DNA from: a virus
Length of the DNA stretch: 21,494 nucleotides
Virus record (IMG/VR): IMGVR_UViG_3300005582_000135
Location: 1-21,494 of that record
Reading direction: 5' to 3' (one strand)
Every line of letters begins with the position of its first letter. The stretch's first letter is position 1. The translations under genes and the position numbers were made by a program. Of the stretch, positions 3,196 through 20,448 are shown one piece after another. Below the pieces are notes generated by a model, which did no database searches, was not told the origin of the DNA, and was given only the letters and a program-made list of their open reading frames with translations.

Positions 3196-3513
3196 ATGTC
3201 AGTTGAAATTACAAAAGACAACTATGATAAAGTTGTCAAAGAGTCTAATAAACTTATTTTATTAGATTTTTATGCCACATGGTGTGGCCCGTGCAAGACT
3301 ATCAGTCCTATATTAGATGAACTCTCTAATGAGTATGCTGATACAGTTACTATAGGTAAAGTAGATGTAGATGAGAATGGTGATATCAATTCTGAATATG
3401 GTATAAGAGCAGTTCCTACTGTCTTATTCATCAAAGATGGTGTTGTTGTCAACAAGATTCTTGGTGCTAAACTCAAATCTGAATTCAAAGCAATCATTGA
3501 TGCAAACTTATAA
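3196..3513 (+). CDS. trxA: Thioredoxin
   Basis: A 105-residue classical thioredoxin, full length for the family. The redox-active site WCGPC is at residues 29-33 within DFYATWCGPCK, and the conserved cis-proline is in AVPT (72-75). The core strand KVDVDE (55-60) and the FIKDG turn are also present. It is a cytoplasmic dithiol-disulfide reductase that could support ribonucleotide reduction or a replication enzyme, as host thioredoxin does for T7 polymerase; that role here is inference. It lies in a tight run of + strand genes and starts in AAATAAAATG. The similarity to bacterial thioredoxins suggests acquisition from a host. Confidence 0.95.
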   Translation: MSVEITKDNYDKVVKESNKLILLDFYATWCGPCKTISPILDELSNEYADTVTIGKVDVDENGDINSEYGIRAVPTVLFIKDGVVVNKILGAKLKSEFKAIIDANL

Positions 3514-4764: not shown

Positions 4765-4838
4765 GGTCCCATAGCTCAACTGGATAGAGCACTACCCTTC
4801 TAAGGTATAGGTTATAGGTTCGACTCCTATTGGGATCA
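4765..4838 (+). tRNA. tRNA-Arg (anticodon UCU)
   Basis: A canonical 74-base class I tRNA without encoded CCA. Acceptor GGTCCCA (4765-4771) pairs with TGGGATC (4831-4837) with one G-U. The D-arm is GCTC..GAGC (4774-4790). The anticodon arm is CTACC-CTTCTAA-GGTAT (4792-4808) with anticodon TCT at 4799-4801; the outermost pair is mismatched. The T-arm is ATAGG-TTCGACT-CCTAT (4814-4830). It reads AGA, the dominant arginine codon in most genes of this window, so it probably supplements a host tRNA that is scarce for this AT-rich genome. Confidence 0.93.
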
Positions 4839-4863
4839 CTATTTTATTGTTTAATTTAAATTT

Positions 4864-5172
4864 ATGATTATGGGTTTTAAGAAAAAACCAGTTATTGATG
4901 TTCAACCAGTAGGTAAACTTCTGATAATTGATGAAAATGCAGAATTGTTACACGAGATATTTGGTATCAGTGAAGAACGTTCACAAGAACTATTAGACAT
5001 ATGTCTTGATGTATATAGTGAAAATAACCTTTTGCATGAATGTTTGACAACTGTTGTAGATAAATGTAACCACGTGAATGAGGTAGTATTTGCAACTATG
5101 GTAATGCAAAAAGTCATTGAATCATATGCTTTAAAAGATAGAATGACTGAAATGATGAACAAAAGATTTTAG
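4864..5172 (+). CDS. Unknown helical protein, shares 3' end with gene at 3804
   Basis: A 102-residue, mostly helical protein (start at 4864, or at 4870 giving MGFKKKP). After a basic N-terminus and LLIIDENAELL, two long amphipathic helices follow, with several Cys and His residues in LLHECLTTVVDKCNHV. The last residues EMMNKRF are encoded by ATGAACAAAAGATTT (5155-5169), identical to bases in the gene at 3804 that also ends near MNKRF. No enzyme motif is seen. It starts 25 bases after the tRNA-Arg gene and is followed after 2 bases by the next gene. Confidence 0.7.
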   Translation: MIMGFKKKPVIDVQPVGKLLIIDENAELLHEIFGISEERSQELLDICLDVYSENNLLHECLTTVVDKCNHVNEVVFATMVMQKVIESYALKDRMTEMMNKRF

Positions 5173-7411: not shown

Positions 7412-7790
7412 TGGTTGTCAAAAGATGACTGTTATTTGGAAGAACCATGAGGGATTCAGGTATTGTAAACAATGCTGGAGTTGCCACAAAAGCGAAGATA
7501 ATACACAGAAACCAACAAGTTCTGCTGTCCCTCGTGTGTCTTCTAAACAGAAAAAGAAAGACCAAGAATATCTGAAATTAAGAGAAAGATATCTAACAGA
7601 GAATCATTTGTGTATGGTGAAAGTAGGTGGTTGCACACATAATGCAACTGATGTACATCATACATATGCAGGATCTAATAGAGATGCTTTCTATCTAGTT
7701 CAGAGTACTTGGCTTGCAACATGTAGAAATTGTCATGATTGGATTCATGCAAGACCTGGAGATGCAAGATTAATGGGATGGTTAAAATAA
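7386..7790 (+). CDS. Zinc-finger HNH-type endonuclease
   Basis: A 134-residue protein. The N-terminus has a zinc-ribbon-like cluster: C8, C11, C27, C30, with C33 nearby. After a Lys-rich linker (about 53-67) comes an HNH-like domain with C76 and C83, the His pair in DVHHTYAG (89-96), and CRNCHDWIH (113-121) supplying further metal ligands. Such His-Cys modules cut DNA with one metal ion, and phage versions serve in recombination, packaging or as NinG-like junction nucleases. It overlaps the preceding gene and lies 5 bases before the SF2 helicase, which suggests a shared job in DNA processing. Its exact substrate is unknown. Confidence 0.8.
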   Translation: MKVKLKECDGCQKMTVIWKNHEGFRYCKQCWSCHKSEDNTQKPTSSAVPRVSSKQKKKDQEYLKLRERYLTENHLCMVKVGGCTHNATDVHHTYAGSNRDAFYLVQSTWLATCRNCHDWIHARPGDARLMGWLK

Positions 7791-7795
7791 TACTT

Positions 7796-8890
7796 ATGAC
7801 AAAAGATGAAGTTCAATTAGAAGCACTTGATGCAACTTCTGGGAAACAGAAGTGTAGTGTAGTTCTAGGTACTGGTGTAGGTAAAACCCTTGTGGGTCTA
7901 AATCATATAGAACGTAACACTACAGGTTTAATGAAAGTTCTCATTGTTGCACCAAAACGGTCTATTTTCCAATCATGGAAAGATGATGCCGTCAAGTTTG
8001 ACAAAGAGGACTTATTAGATAGAATGACATTTACTACTTATCTGAGCTTGAATAAACACAATCCTAATGACTATGATGTAATCTATCTAGATGAGGTTCA
8101 TAGTTTGTTAGATAGTCACAGAAAATTTCTGGAACTTTATAAGGGTAGAATACTTGGTTTAACAGGTACACCACCCAAAAGAGGTTATTCAGAGAAAGGT
8201 AAGTTAGTCAATGAATTCTGTCCGGTAGTATATACTTTTAAGGCAGATGATGCTGTAGAGAATGGAATACTAAATGATTATCAGATCATAGTTCACAAAC
8301 TGAGACTAAATCAAAACAAAGGTTATGTTGCAGAAATGAAAGGTAAATCATTTGTTACCACAGAGTATGATAACTATAACTATTGGTCTAGAAGAATTGA
8401 TTTGGGTTCTGGTAATATGCAAATGCTTAGAGTTATGCGTATGAAGTCTATGATGGAATACCCAACAAAGGAAAAGTACACAAAGAAACTTATGGATAAC
8501 ATTCAGACTAAGTGTATCATCTTTGCTAATACTCAAGCACAAGCAGACAGACTATGTGAATATAGTTACCACAGCAAGAATAAGGAATCAGAAGAGAATC
8601 TTGAGAAATTTAAAGATGGTCAGATTACTAAACTATCTACTGTACTGCAATTAAGTGAAGGTGTAAACATTCCTAATCTTAAACAAGGAATTATTATGCA
8701 TGCTTATGGTAATGAGAGAAAAGCAAGTCAGAGAATAGGTAGATTACTCAGACTTAATCCAGATGACAAAGCAATTGTACACATACTATGTTATGTAGAT
8801 ACAATTGATGAGAAATGGGTTACTGAAGCATTAGAATCATTTGATCAGAATAAAGTCTTATGGAAAGATTATGGGGTTAGTTTAGATTAA
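7796..8890 (+). CDS. Superfamily 2 DNA/RNA helicase
   Basis: A 364-residue helicase. The start at 7796 lies in AATACTTATG, the favoured context; a start at 7739 in the same frame would overlap the HNH gene. Visible motifs: Q7 near the N-terminus, Walker A GTGVGKT (25-31), motif Ia VAPKRS, DEVH box (99-102), motif III TGTPPKRG (123-130), motif IV CIIFANTQAQADRL, motif V EGVNIP and motif VI QRIGRLLR (312-319). This is a compact ATP-dependent helicase or translocase like those found in crAss-like phage replication blocks. Its stop codon lies inside a terminator stem. Confidence 0.95.
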   Translation: MTKDEVQLEALDATSGKQKCSVVLGTGVGKTLVGLNHIERNTTGLMKVLIVAPKRSIFQSWKDDAVKFDKEDLLDRMTFTTYLSLNKHNPNDYDVIYLDEVHSLLDSHRKFLELYKGRILGLTGTPPKRGYSEKGKLVNEFCPVVYTFKADDAVENGILNDYQIIVHKLRLNQNKGYVAEMKGKSFVTTEYDNYNYWSRRIDLGSGNMQMLRVMRMKSMMEYPTKEKYTKKLMDNIQTKCIIFANTQAQADRLCEYSYHSKNKESEENLEKFKDGQITKLSTVLQLSEGVNIPNLKQGIIMHAYGNERKASQRIGRLLRLNPDDKAIVHILCYVDTIDEKWVTEALESFDQNKVLWKDYGVSLD

Positions 8891-8903
8891 CCCCTCATTT
8901 TTT
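8873..8903 (+). terminator. Terminator overlapping the helicase stop codon
   Basis: GGGGTTA (8873-8879) pairs perfectly with TAACCCC (8888-8894), then TCA and a run of six T (8898-8903). The 5' arm codes the last residues of the SF2 helicase, and its TAA stop (8888-8890) is in the 3' arm. Confidence 0.85.
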
Positions 8904-8919
8904 CGTATATTAGAATTAT

Positions 8920-9174
8920 ATGGATACAAATAAAACACATAAGTTAGTGTTGTATAATGATGATCGTAATGATTATCTCTATGTGATTGCATGTCTTATT
9001 AGATTCTGCAAACATGAACCAGTACAAGCTGAACAATGTGCTATAATTGCTCATAGTGTAGGAAAATGTTCTGTAAAATCAGGTGATTATTTACAAATGT
9101 TAGAGTTAAAATCTGACTTTGAAGAATTAAAACTTAATACAGAAATTGAAACTTATGAAAGTTATTTGCATTGA
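8920..9174 (+). CDS. clpS: ClpS-like Clp protease adaptor
   Basis: An 84-residue protein matching the ClpS core nearly end to end. KLVLYNDDRNDYLYVI (8-23) corresponds to the ClpS 'NDD' strand and helix, and QAEQCAIIAHSVGKCSVKSG (36-55) to the helix with the conserved His and Gly. The N-degron pocket residues known from E. coli ClpS (N34, D35, D36, H66) align with N13, D14, D15 and H45. The gatekeeper Met40 is replaced by Tyr19. ClpS binds Clp unfoldase N-domains and delivers proteins with primary N-degron residues. Only about seven residues precede the core, so the N-terminal extension used for substrate handover is nearly absent. It opens a transcript after the terminator at 8873. Confidence 0.9.
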   Translation: MDTNKTHKLVLYNDDRNDYLYVIACLIRFCKHEPVQAEQCAIIAHSVGKCSVKSGDYLQMLELKSDFEELKLNTEIETYESYLH

Positions 9175-9424
9175 TTCAAGTAACAAGCCAGGTAAAATAG
9201 CAGAAAGTGAATGGATACAAGAAGGTATAGTTTATACCATTGTATCCTCTGTTAATATGGGTCTACAACCCGGTAAAATTGGTTTGAAACTTCAAGAAGT
9301 TGAGCTTACTCAAAAATCTTTTCCTTATGAATATTATGATTCATCAAGATTTCTTCCTATAGAAGGATTATTTGCTGAAGCAGAGAAATTAGAAAAGAAA
9401 GAAGTAGAACTAGATATTATATGA
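9155..9424 (+). CDS. Conserved small protein of Bacteroidetes and phages
   Basis: An 89-residue protein. The ATG at 9155 in GAAACTTATG is chosen over an in-frame ATG three codons upstream (9146). The N-terminus KVICIDSSNKPGKIAESEW then EGIVYTI (residues 2-30) is a pattern I recognise from small uncharacterised proteins of Bacteroidetes and their phages. A central GLQPGKIGLKLQEVEL strand pair and an aromatic SSRFLPI follow, with an acidic helical tail. It overlaps the ClpS-like gene by 20 bases, so the two are translated together. Function unknown. Confidence 0.75.
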   Translation: MKVICIDSSNKPGKIAESEWIQEGIVYTIVSSVNMGLQPGKIGLKLQEVELTQKSFPYEYYDSSRFLPIEGLFAEAEKLEKKEVELDII

Positions 9425-9425
9425 T

Positions 9426-9863
9426 ATGGAAGATTACACAAAAGATGATGTAATCAGTGCTTTTTTGAAGATAACTCAAAAGTCAAGAAAAAGAGTTCTG
9501 GTAGATCAGAGAAGTTACCTGATTGGTGTATTAGCATTTAGATTTATGATGTCTGAACATGCCATTGCTGATGCAGTTGGTTATAAAAGAACTAATATCA
9601 ATTATAACAAGAGACTTGTATTACAATTGCATAATGATAAATCATACATGGAGAATGTCTATGTCTATGCTCAATTGTTCCCATTTGATTTTGATGTAAT
9701 TGAAGTTACTACTAAAGTAGAAAGGTCAAGACGGATTGAATTAGATTTAGACAACAAGTTTTATAACAAACTAAAGGCAGCCGGTTCAATTCTAGGTCAT
9801 GCAGACATTAGAATAACAATCAAATCCTTTTTAGAAAAAAGTTTAAAATTATGGGAAGAATGA
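9426..9863 (+). CDS. DnaA domain IV-like DNA-binding protein
   Basis: A 145-residue protein. Residues 19-66 follow the layout of the DnaA C-terminal helix-turn-helix: SRKR, then QRSYLIGVLAF (as in DnaA RQ-AMYLA), then EHAIADAVGYKRTNINYNKRL (as in 'LPEIG--FGGRDHTTVLHA--K'). The DnaA signature is loosely kept, and there is no AAA domain. The C-terminal part (about 100-145) has a strand-helix-helix look. This could be an origin-binding factor or a regulator that competes at DnaA boxes; both are inference. It starts one base after the preceding stop. Confidence 0.55.
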   Translation: MEDYTKDDVISAFLKITQKSRKRVLVDQRSYLIGVLAFRFMMSEHAIADAVGYKRTNINYNKRLVLQLHNDKSYMENVYVYAQLFPFDFDVIEVTTKVERSRRIELDLDNKFYNKLKAAGSILGHADIRITIKSFLEKSLKLWEE

Positions 9864-18886: not shown

Positions 18887-19294
18887 ATGATGACGGAATT
18901 AGAAATGACTGCCCTCTTATTTAAGTTGGCTGACCTTGGTGTGACTGGAATTCAAGTAAGTTATGATGGTGGAGGTGACTCAGGATGTATTGAAGCAATT
19001 ACATATACAACCAAACCTTGTGAAACTCCAGAAGATGCTAATGATCTTGCAGATCAATATGGGCAAGGAGAAAATCTAGCTGATCTAGATCAAAATCTTT
19101 ATGAACAGATTGAGAATTTTGCTCATAGTACTATTCTTGATGACATTGAAGATTGGTGGAATAATGAAGGTGGTTGGGGTCAATTATGTATTTGTGTTCC
19201 TTCAGGAAAATACATTGTAAACAGTCACATCAGAATTACTGAAACTGAAGATTATCAGCATGAAGGAGATTTATTAAGTAAAACTAAGAAGTAA
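18887..19294 (+). CDS. DUF6878-like conserved protein
   Basis: A 135-residue acidic protein. The motif GVTGIQVSYDGGGDSGCIE (18-36) is followed by DIEDWWNNEGGWGQLCICVPSGKY (about 86-109) and an RITETEDYQHEG end. This set ('YDG-GDSG', 'WW-NEGG-G', 'YQHEG') is typical of the DUF6878-type family found in phages and bacteria; the family name is from memory. The conserved Asp/Gly and Trp residues suggest a ligand- or metal-binding site, but the activity is unknown. The stop overlaps the next ATG by one base (TAATG). Confidence 0.65.
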   Translation: MMTELEMTALLFKLADLGVTGIQVSYDGGGDSGCIEAITYTTKPCETPEDANDLADQYGQGENLADLDQNLYEQIENFAHSTILDDIEDWWNNEGGWGQLCICVPSGKYIVNSHIRITETEDYQHEGDLLSKTKK

Positions 19295-19635
19295 TGGCAC
19301 ATCCTTGGGAACATTCAAAATCATCAGCTAGAAAGTTTGGAGGGATACCTGATGACTACCATCACATTCATGAGTGGTTTGATGCTACTAAAGCATGGAT
19401 AGCTCACAGTAAGCATAGGATGTTTAGACATCATGCTGAAGGTATCTTTGAATGTGAGAAGGTATTTGGTGTATCTTTTGTCAACTCTGCTGATAAAACT
19501 GTATACACAAGATATGTTGCAGAACAGCATGTTAAGGAGGATTGTAACAATTACATTCCGACAGCAAAAGAATGGGTGGATAACATTAATACACCTACAG
19601 AATGGATGATTAAAACACTTAAAATAGAAGACTGA
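19294..19635 (+). CDS. DUF6915-like conserved protein, ends KIED
   Basis: A 113-residue protein with HPWEHSKSSARKFGG (3-17), IHEWFDATKAW (25-35), a His-rich HRMFRHHAEGIFECEKVFG (41-59), RYVAEQHVKEDC (72-83) and IPTAKEWV (88-95). This string of conserved blocks is one I know as DUF6915, a family in phages and bacteria without a proven function. The clustered His/Glu residues (RHHAEGIF, EQHVKED) suggest a metal site. It is the first of four genes ending Lys-Ile-Glu-Asp with an overlapping stop/start, here TGATG. Confidence 0.75.
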   Translation: MAHPWEHSKSSARKFGGIPDDYHHIHEWFDATKAWIAHSKHRMFRHHAEGIFECEKVFGVSFVNSADKTVYTRYVAEQHVKEDCNNYIPTAKEWVDNINTPTEWMIKTLKIED

Positions 19636-19637
19636 TG
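19621..19637 (+). repeat. KIED junction repeat, copy 1
   Basis: AAAATAGAAGACTGATG: codes K-I-E-D, stop TGA, and overlaps the next ATG by one base. Matches copies at 19830, 20129 and 20434. Confidence 0.85.
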
Positions 19638-19844
19638 ACACAAGAAAGAAAAGAAGAATGGTATTCTAAAATTAAAGAAGCATCTGCTATTTGGTTTAAA
19701 GAAAATCCTGATTATCATCCTGCATTTAATTATTATGATTCAGGTGAAGTTAGTATTCCAAATGATCCTGAGTACTATAGATTACCTACAGCAATGTGGA
19801 AAGAATATCATGAAGAATTGTATAATGCTAAAATAGAAGACTAA
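19635..19844 (+). CDS. Small unknown protein ending KIED (69 aa)
   Basis: A 69-residue protein with a charged helical start (QERKEEWYSKIKEASAIWF), a Pro/Tyr-rich middle (PDYHPAFNYYDSGEV, DPEYYRLP) and MWKEYHEELYNAKIED at the end. No family is recognised. It begins at the 1-base TGATG overlap with the previous gene and ends at a TAATG overlap with the next. The last 12 coding bases AAAATAGAAGAC are identical to those of its upstream neighbour. Confidence 0.65.
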   Translation: MTQERKEEWYSKIKEASAIWFKENPDYHPAFNYYDSGEVSIPNDPEYYRLPTAMWKEYHEELYNAKIED

Positions 19845-19846
19845 TG
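19830..19846 (+). repeat. KIED junction repeat, copy 2
   Basis: AAAATAGAAGACTAATG, followed by GAA. Differs from copy 1 by one base in the stop codon. Confidence 0.85.
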
Positions 19847-20143
19847 GAACAAAGAATCAACATATTTACAGTGGATACTGTAATAGAAGATGGTAGTTAC
19901 ATAAAAGTAACGGGAGTATATCAGATACCTGAAGGTTCACCATTTGAAAGAGGTGATATACTAACTGAAGATAAATATAATGGTCATCAAATATATGTAG
20001 CGTTTGCTACTAAAGATGAAAATGGGAAAGATGGTTTAGTATTAGATGATAAAAGCAGGCATCCTACTATTAAAAAACCGTTTAGTGAAAAATTAATAAA
20101 AGATCTTAAACTTGGTATACACTTATTTAAAATAGAAGACTAA
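19844..20143 (+). CDS. Small beta-rich unknown protein ending KIED (99 aa)
   Basis: A 99-residue protein, largely beta-strand: NIFTVDTVIEDGSYIKVTGVYQIP, then GDILTEDKYNGHQIYVAFAT, then a charged KSRHPTIKKPFSEKLIKDLKLGIHLF region before the terminal KIED. No family is recognised. Both its gene junctions are the TAATGGAA form, so it is embedded in the chain of 1-base overlaps. Confidence 0.65.
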   Translation: MEQRINIFTVDTVIEDGSYIKVTGVYQIPEGSPFERGDILTEDKYNGHQIYVAFATKDENGKDGLVLDDKSRHPTIKKPFSEKLIKDLKLGIHLFKIED

Positions 20144-20145
20144 TG
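20129..20145 (+). repeat. KIED junction repeat, copy 3
   Basis: AAAATAGAAGACTAATG, followed by GAA. Identical to copy 2 over 20 bases including the first codon after ATG. Confidence 0.85.
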
Positions 20146-20448
20146 GAAGATGTAAAGATTAAAATAGTTTTTAGAAATGAAACAAATTCTGATGAAAAAG
20201 AATTATTTATAGAATTTGAATGTAAAAAAGATGGGGATACAAAAGCTACTAATGTTGGTTTAGATCCACTTGTATTTAGTACAGAAGCTTCATTTATGGG
20301 TAGTATGTATATGGATACTGTTAATGTATTAATGACTATAAAAAAGTTATTTGATAATGAAGAAGCTTATGAAGGTCTTCATATACTGACTAGAGCAGAG
20401 TATAAAGAATATGTAACAAAAGTATTAGGTTATAAAATTGAAGACTGA
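20143..20448 (+). CDS. Small unknown protein ending KIED (101 aa)
   Basis: A 101-residue protein with a beta-rich, acidic N-terminal half (VKIKIVFRNETNSDEKELFIEFECK) and a Met-rich helical middle (FMGSMYMDTVNVLMTIKKLFD). The helical C-terminus is EYKEYVTKVLGYKIED. It carries the fourth KIED end, here with ATT for Ile, and a TGATG overlap to the tiny gene that follows. No family is recognised. Confidence 0.65.
   Translation: MEDVKIKIVFRNETNSDEKELFIEFECKKDGDTKATNVGLDPLVFSTEASFMGSMYMDTVNVLMTIKKLFDNEEAYEGLHILTRAEYKEYVTKVLGYKIED

Follow-up and report, generated by a model that had tools for sequence, protein, structure and literature searches.

What does a virus do with a ClpS domain that comes with almost no N-terminal extension: feed proteins to the proteolytic machinery of its host, keep them from it, or serve some unrelated end? 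The question is raised by one gene, clpS, in a virus record of 21,494 bases (the whole stretch of DNA analysed here, called the window; Table 1).

Table 1. Features of the clpS locus, in window coordinates
Feature	Position	Strand	Basis
Superfamily 2 type helicase, constant upstream neighbour of clpS	7784..8890	+	Pfam ResIII, Helicase_C
Terminator-like hairpin and T run in the helicase–clpS gap	8873..8905	+	fold z-score -3.2
TATATTAG motif, promoter-like, upstream of clpS	8906..8913	+	conservation
clpS, 84-residue ClpS domain; N-terminal extension about 5 residues	8920..9174	+	Pfam ClpS, AlphaFold model
Codons for N13-D14-D15 (E. coli N34-D35-D36), N-degron alpha-amino site	8956..8964	+	alignment
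Codon for Y19, E. coli M40 gatekeeper position	8974..8976	+	alignment
Codons for A44-H45 (E. coli V65-H66), pocket wall and alpha-amino ligand	9049..9054	+	alignment
Codons for L58-L63, helix 3, with L58, L61 and L63 at E. coli E79, E82 and K84	9091..9108	+	inferred mapping
Small gene, 89 residues, SH3-like barrel and acidic C-terminal tail	9155..9424	+	tblastn, alignment, AF2

A phage-encoded ClpS domain

The open reading frame is real and encodes a true ClpS domain, in agreement with the 84-residue ClpS core originally proposed at this position. The Pfam ClpS profile (PF02617), a search set beforehand as a possible refutation, places the protein in the family, matching residues 4–69 with an E value of 2.3e-13 and a score of 50.2 bits, compared with a curated cut-off of 23 bits. 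The AlphaFold2 model, built from 72 aligned sequences (mean pLDDT 92.5), has its secondary-structure elements in the order strand-helix-helix-strand-helix-strand, and its best 25 matches among solved structures are all ClpS, with Z-scores of 12.9–15.3; the E. coli ClpS structure 3o2b matches at a Z-score of about 14 with 20% identity. By sequence, a profile made from the phage ClpS alignment retrieves Plasmodium ClpS, E. coli ClpS and the N-domains of UBR1 and UBR2. Ribosomal L7/L12, considered as an alternative fold for the window protein, gave Z-scores of at most 9.8, against 13–15 for ClpS. A conserved YESxxMH-like C-terminal tail of phage ClpS was set aside as a functional sign, since its coding sequence runs into the region of the next gene's start codon.

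Separately, BFVD models of proteins from the crAss-like gut phages cr56_1, cr10_1, cr1_1, cr50_1 and cr126_1 have ClpS or L7/L12-like folds (E 0.01–0.06). Members of this set, of which A0A7M1RR25 and A0A7M1RW86 are examples, are unnamed or called bL12-like, and they are possibly distant or parallel versions.

A single capture in a crAss-like lineage

By its gene content, the window belongs to a divergent crAss-like lineage (Crassvirales), and the crAss-like assignment made in the original prediction agrees with both primase and portal homologues. The window primase matches many crAss-like phages at 26–32% identity. The window, a fragment of 21 kb, lacks the portal gene, and the portal evidence comes from larger related contigs: among 12 of these that bear ClpS, 8 have a gene for a protein homologous to the cr10_1 portal, with E values down to 7e-24, and seven have weak matches to the cr10_1 capsid protein. 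A nucleotide search of phage records with the whole window gave no match. The window also holds a phage thioredoxin gene (positions 3196–3513, Pfam E 4e-32), with a tblastn match in one locus only (L018, 40% identity); most loci stop short of that region.

Among annotated phage records, three only have a close ClpS relative, and all three are huge phages. Scanning viral contigs with the single ClpS sequence returned zero relatives, and searching the viral contig collection with a four-sequence alignment that included the huge-phage sequences returned 242, with identities reaching 76%; of these, the best 80 were kept for analysis. In a maximum-likelihood tree made from 73 columns, in which many inner forks are unresolved, a branch with 100/99 support and a long stem separates the 45 crAss-like ClpS from the rest, and the group is nested within the ClpS of Bacteroidota. 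We take ClpS to be shown here to descend from a single capture, from a Bacteroidota host, by the ancestor of the crAss-like lineage, which has kept it as a core gene.

The neighbourhood of the gene is fixed among the best 80 of the 242 relatives, with the helicase upstream and a 92-codon open reading frame downstream in nearly all loci; tblastn places the small gene next to clpS in most of the 80. Because a search based on clpS would be circular, we used the helicase as query, and clpS lies downstream in 78 of the 80 loci found in this way. This frequency bears on whether the gene is a passenger, that is, a copied host gene that has no function or is decaying. The lost extension, and a pocket residue missing from some members of the clade, would be expected of such a copy, but its near-constant presence at the helicase and its single, old origin on a long stem would not. 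Further, pairwise dN/dS values among phage ClpS, within the usable range, have a median of 0.33 and a maximum of 0.85, a sign of purifying selection and thus of a gene that is not decaying. We regard a passenger as highly improbable.

On the side of the host, 86 of 99 Bacteroidia genomes have a ClpS and the Bacteroides control genome has none, which makes the Bacteroides host originally proposed doubtful. Eight ClpS-bearing Bacteroidota genomes all encode Clp ATPases of 845–860 residues, and just one of the eight has a ClpA-like enzyme. Searches of the larger phage contigs, which may be incomplete, found no genes for ClpP, Clp_N or Leu/Phe-transferase, so any partner should be the host's. One Bacteroidia genome (G054) has three different clpS genes (L170, L171 and L172), two of them of divergent type (NTFEHIYFSLMEVCGH / NTFEHVYNSLMEICGH); these are paralogues or mobile-element copies.

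Loss of the N-terminal extension

All 81 phage-clade proteins have 9–13 residues from the start methionine to the ND motif, against 24–38 residues in all 80 Bacteroidota ClpS. In E. coli ClpS, residues 1–26 form the extension and residues 27–106 the core (PMC9663308); counted from that core start, the window protein has about five residues ahead of the core, close to the 'about seven' of the original prediction. The missing extension that it pointed out holds across the phage lineage (81/81 proteins, compared with 0/80 from Bacteroidota).

We considered a hidden, longer start of clpS and rejected it on the basis of upstream in-frame stops. An in-frame TAG lies three codons upstream of the window ATG, and in 28 of 55 distinct phage members the 10 codons ahead of the start include an in-frame stop (15 TAG, 11 TAA and 2 TGA). 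Suppression of TAG matters here because the window carries a tRNA gene with a CTA anticodon (TAG-suppressor type, positions 4765–4839), as do other crAss-like phages. With 13 of the 28 stops being TAA or TGA, a longer start is ruled out at those loci even with TAG suppression, and a concealed one appears unlikely throughout. Within the window, TAG still terminates 6 of the 44 open reading frames taken as genes.

Deletion work on E. coli ClpS has suggested that the core without its extension binds and does not deliver, and the virus lineage appears to have fixed this core-only form under selection. When E. coli ClpS delivers a substrate, the extension goes into the channel of ClpA, which pulls on it, and degradation is inhibited when this entry is blocked (PMC9663308). 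The window extension falls short of the length needed for the unfoldase channel, which in E. coli is provided by 26 residues. By analogy with E. coli, the phage form would be unable to deliver; Bacteroidota use ClpC-type ATPases.

A conserved N-degron corner with a changed wall

Window residues N13, D14, D15, Y19 and H45 align to E. coli N34, D35, D36, M40 and H66, as the original prediction had it for the four that it set on the N-degron pocket (N13, D14, D15 and H45). The corner that binds the alpha-amino group is the best-conserved region of phage ClpS: the equivalents of N34 and D35 do not vary in any of the 56 distinct phage cores or the 66 bacterial ones, and the third motif position, equivalent to D36, is Asp in 39 of the 56 phage cores. 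At the gatekeeper (the M40 position), phage cores have Phe (34), Tyr (21) or Val (1). The replacement of Met by Tyr that had been singled out is therefore present in the window, as Y19, but is not specific to phages; all 66 Bacteroidota ClpS have Phe here, which makes an aromatic gatekeeper ancestral and Tyr no phage novelty.

Two other pocket positions set the phages apart. The V65 position, which contributes to the wall of the pocket (PMC8346999, PMC12493166), is Ala in 42, Thr in 7 and Val in 7 of the 56 phage cores, compared with Val in 58 and Ile in 8 of the 66 bacterial cores; this shift to Ala in most phage members, seen in no bacterium, suggests a changed specificity. At the H66 position, where all 66 bacterial cores have His, 37 phage cores keep it, the window protein among them, and the others have Asp (17) or Asn (2). 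On the phage tree, this residue changed in eight steps by parsimony, at least three of which are forced by well-supported branches. Asp is also found at this position in human UBR1 (PMC8346999) and Leptospira ClpS1 (PMC12493166), so N-degron binding need not be abolished by the change, and the replacement could reflect relaxed N-degron binding.

A rebuilt Clp-docking helix

Helix 3 of E. coli ClpS contacts ClpA through E79, E82 and K84 (PMC12493166). We placed these positions on phage ClpS by ungapped offsets of +13, +16 and +18 from H66, an inferred mapping that agrees with strand 49–55 and helix 57–69 of the window model. At the E79 position, the phage clade has mostly Met or Leu, and 51 of 71 bacteria have Asp or Glu; at the E82 position, 51 of 55 phage members have Leu, Phe or Tyr, and 41 of 71 bacteria have Lys; the residue that follows is Glu or Asp in phages versus Pro in 63 of 71 bacteria. 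The window protein, with L58, L61 and L63, has lost the charged docking residues as defined from E. coli, and Bacteroidota ClpS retain only the first of the three, as Asp or Glu. Under this mapping, the Clp-facing surface of helix 3 appears to have been rebuilt in a conserved manner across the phage clade. The original prediction had named the Clp-binding surface as a check, and here the outcome is mixed: the re-surfaced helix fits a protein that does not deliver in the standard way, and it also weakens the case for binding to the Clp N-domain.

A conserved hydrophobic face in place of charged docking positions could also mean that the ClpS fold has been repurposed for some other protein interaction through helix 3, unrelated to N-degrons and Clp, perhaps with the SH3-like protein described below or with the adjacent replication machinery. 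Repeated loss of the pocket His and the constant position of clpS beside the helicase are consistent with such a role, but strictly invariant equivalents of N34 and D35 are hard to explain without N-terminus binding, and we consider repurposing unlikely.

An overlapping, probable partner gene and expression signals

The small gene downstream starts inside clpS, with a 20-nt overlap, so the two are probably translated together. Two nearly identical contigs (L173 and L174, near position 5100) have neither gene: their helicase is followed directly by a homologue of window positions 9426–9863. The pair was hence lost as a unit, and clpS is dispensable in that lineage. From synteny, gene overlap and joint loss, we infer that the SH3-like protein probably acts together with the clpS product. 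Invariant in its alignment are C5, P12, Y27, G43 and the sequences FPY and RF. Its AlphaFold2 model (pLDDT 85.9) shows a small barrel and an acidic tail that is either disordered or helical; for this model the best structural matches are SH3 domains and are weak (Z-score at most 5.9), and Pfam, PHROGs and PDB gave no trustworthy family match. HspQ and ClpF were tried as identities and rejected, as the protein has generic SH3 structural matches alone and no sequence match to either worth trusting.

This coupled, acidic-tailed gene and the directed change in the pocket wall bring another explanation close behind the one that we prefer: a working adaptor with an altered pocket that selects its own substrates, which the ClpC machine of the host would then degrade. 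The pulling peptide would be either unnecessary with ClpC or provided in trans by the SH3-like protein, through its acidic tail. In favour of such an adaptor are the invariant pocket Asn and Asp, the change to Ala at V65, which suggests a new specificity, and the conserved gene that overlaps clpS, whose product has an acidic and hydrophobic C terminus and which is lost together with clpS. There is a loose likeness to the ClpF–ClpS1 binary adaptor, which literature cited in PMC5347014 proposes for chloroplasts. On the other hand, the E. coli delivery mechanism requires the extension (PMC9663308), the Clp-docking contact positions have turned hydrophobic, and the partner has no sequence link and no clear structural link to ClpF or HspQ. 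We hold a partner-assisted adaptor to be possible, and nearly as likely as a ClpS that binds without delivering.

With regard to expression, the stem of the terminator-like hairpin (8873–8894) is followed by a T run, and the hairpin is found downstream of the helicase in close relatives and absent in distant ones. The TATATTAG motif lies about 10 bases before the clpS ATG and is kept in many relatives, more weakly in distant ones; the sole exact match to TATATTAGNA on the + strand of the window is this motif. A consensus promoter scan gave a number of matches equal to that in shuffled sequences. The proposal that clpS is the first gene of a transcript draws partial support from the hairpin and the conserved TATATTAG, and is plausible. 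Elsewhere in the window, four consecutive open reading frames (19294–20448) share the terminal residues KIED, and a junction, AAAATAGAAGACTA/G followed by ATG, recurs before positions 19635, 19844 and 20143 as a repeated gene-joint element.

Proposed action

The reading that we favour, tentatively, is a non-delivering N-degron binder that competes with or diverts the host pathway. It draws on sequence comparison and on E. coli: delivery there needs the extension and the phage form is without one, which favours a binder that does not deliver, and with the N-terminus corner kept and both the arm and the usual docking face lost, such a binder is the simplest reading. The phage would bring a modified substrate selector, acting as a decoy or shield, and would take the remaining machinery from the host. 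Phage ClpS would occupy N-terminal residues of the Phe/Tyr/Trp/Leu type on host or phage proteins and may also take a site on a host ClpC-type unfoldase; as it would offer the unfoldase no peptide to pull, the host N-degron pathway would be blocked or diverted during infection. The overlapping SH3-like, acidic-tailed protein probably acts with it. Counting against this binder, the change in helix 3 may mean that Clp docking has been lost altogether, the pocket His is replaced in 19 of 55 distinct members, and the lineage of L173 and L174 does without the gene. As a whole, the original interpretation of the locus keeps its ClpS domain, pocket core, missing extension and crAss-like origin, with its Bacteroides host in doubt and the Clp surface mixed.

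Two questions can now be put to experiment, namely whether phages attack the N-degron pathway and whether Bacteroidota ClpC-type machines need the ClpS extension. Phage ClpS could also serve as a compact N-terminus binder or inhibitor of natural origin.

Comparison with known systems

The nearest non-phage relatives are the ClpS of Bacteroidota (for example Elizabethkingia, Chryseobacterium and Bacteroidales), which are 42–67% identical over the matched segment and share with the phage form the fold, the aromatic gatekeeper and the invariant Asn and Asp. They differ from it in the 24–38 residues ahead of the motif, in a constant His at H66 and Val or Ile at V65, and in an acidic and Lys-Pro helix 3, unlike the re-surfaced phage helix. 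E. coli ClpS, the ClpAP adaptor, has in common with the window protein its Pfam family, its fold and the pocket residues N34, D35 and H66, whereas the window protein has no extension, Tyr for M40 and Leu at E79, E82 and K84. Two cellular proteins with the ClpS fold, Leptospira ClpS1 and the N-domain of human UBR1, have Asp at H66, as do 17 of the 56 phage cores. Leptospira ClpS1 also resembles the phage form in its Tyr gatekeeper and a hydrophobic residue at K84, and differs in having an N-terminal extension and binding ClpA (PMC12493166).

Phage-encoded ClpS as such is already known from jumbo phages (PMC7824862), and the literature that we found on phage ClpS function consists of jumbo-phage mentions only. 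The ClpS of Paride, PA5oct, Atu_ph07, GAP32 and Phosso, also phage-encoded (PMC7824862), have been taken for adaptors through which targets reach the ClpAP of the host (PMC7824862, PMC6102473). Unlike the window protein, they are of proteobacterial type and, in most cases, have longer N termini. The ClpS of Vibrio phage 2.275 has a similarly short N terminus, and Asp for His; it is an independent parallel, and shortening is therefore not unique to the crAss-like clade. In the jumbo phages GAP32 (L252), Vibrio 2.275 (L253) and Kaldavass (L254), clpS adjoins or lies near a gene for translation initiation factor IF-3. The ClpS of three huge phages (LR756504, LR745206 and LR756502) are of Bacteroidota type, like the window protein, and 41–43% identical to it, but they have a full-length extension, fall outside the crAss-like clade in the tree and lie in a different gene neighbourhood. 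New among phage ClpS are a core gene found across a crAss-like lineage, the fixed loss of its extension, a rebuilt docking helix, a shifted pocket and a linked partner.
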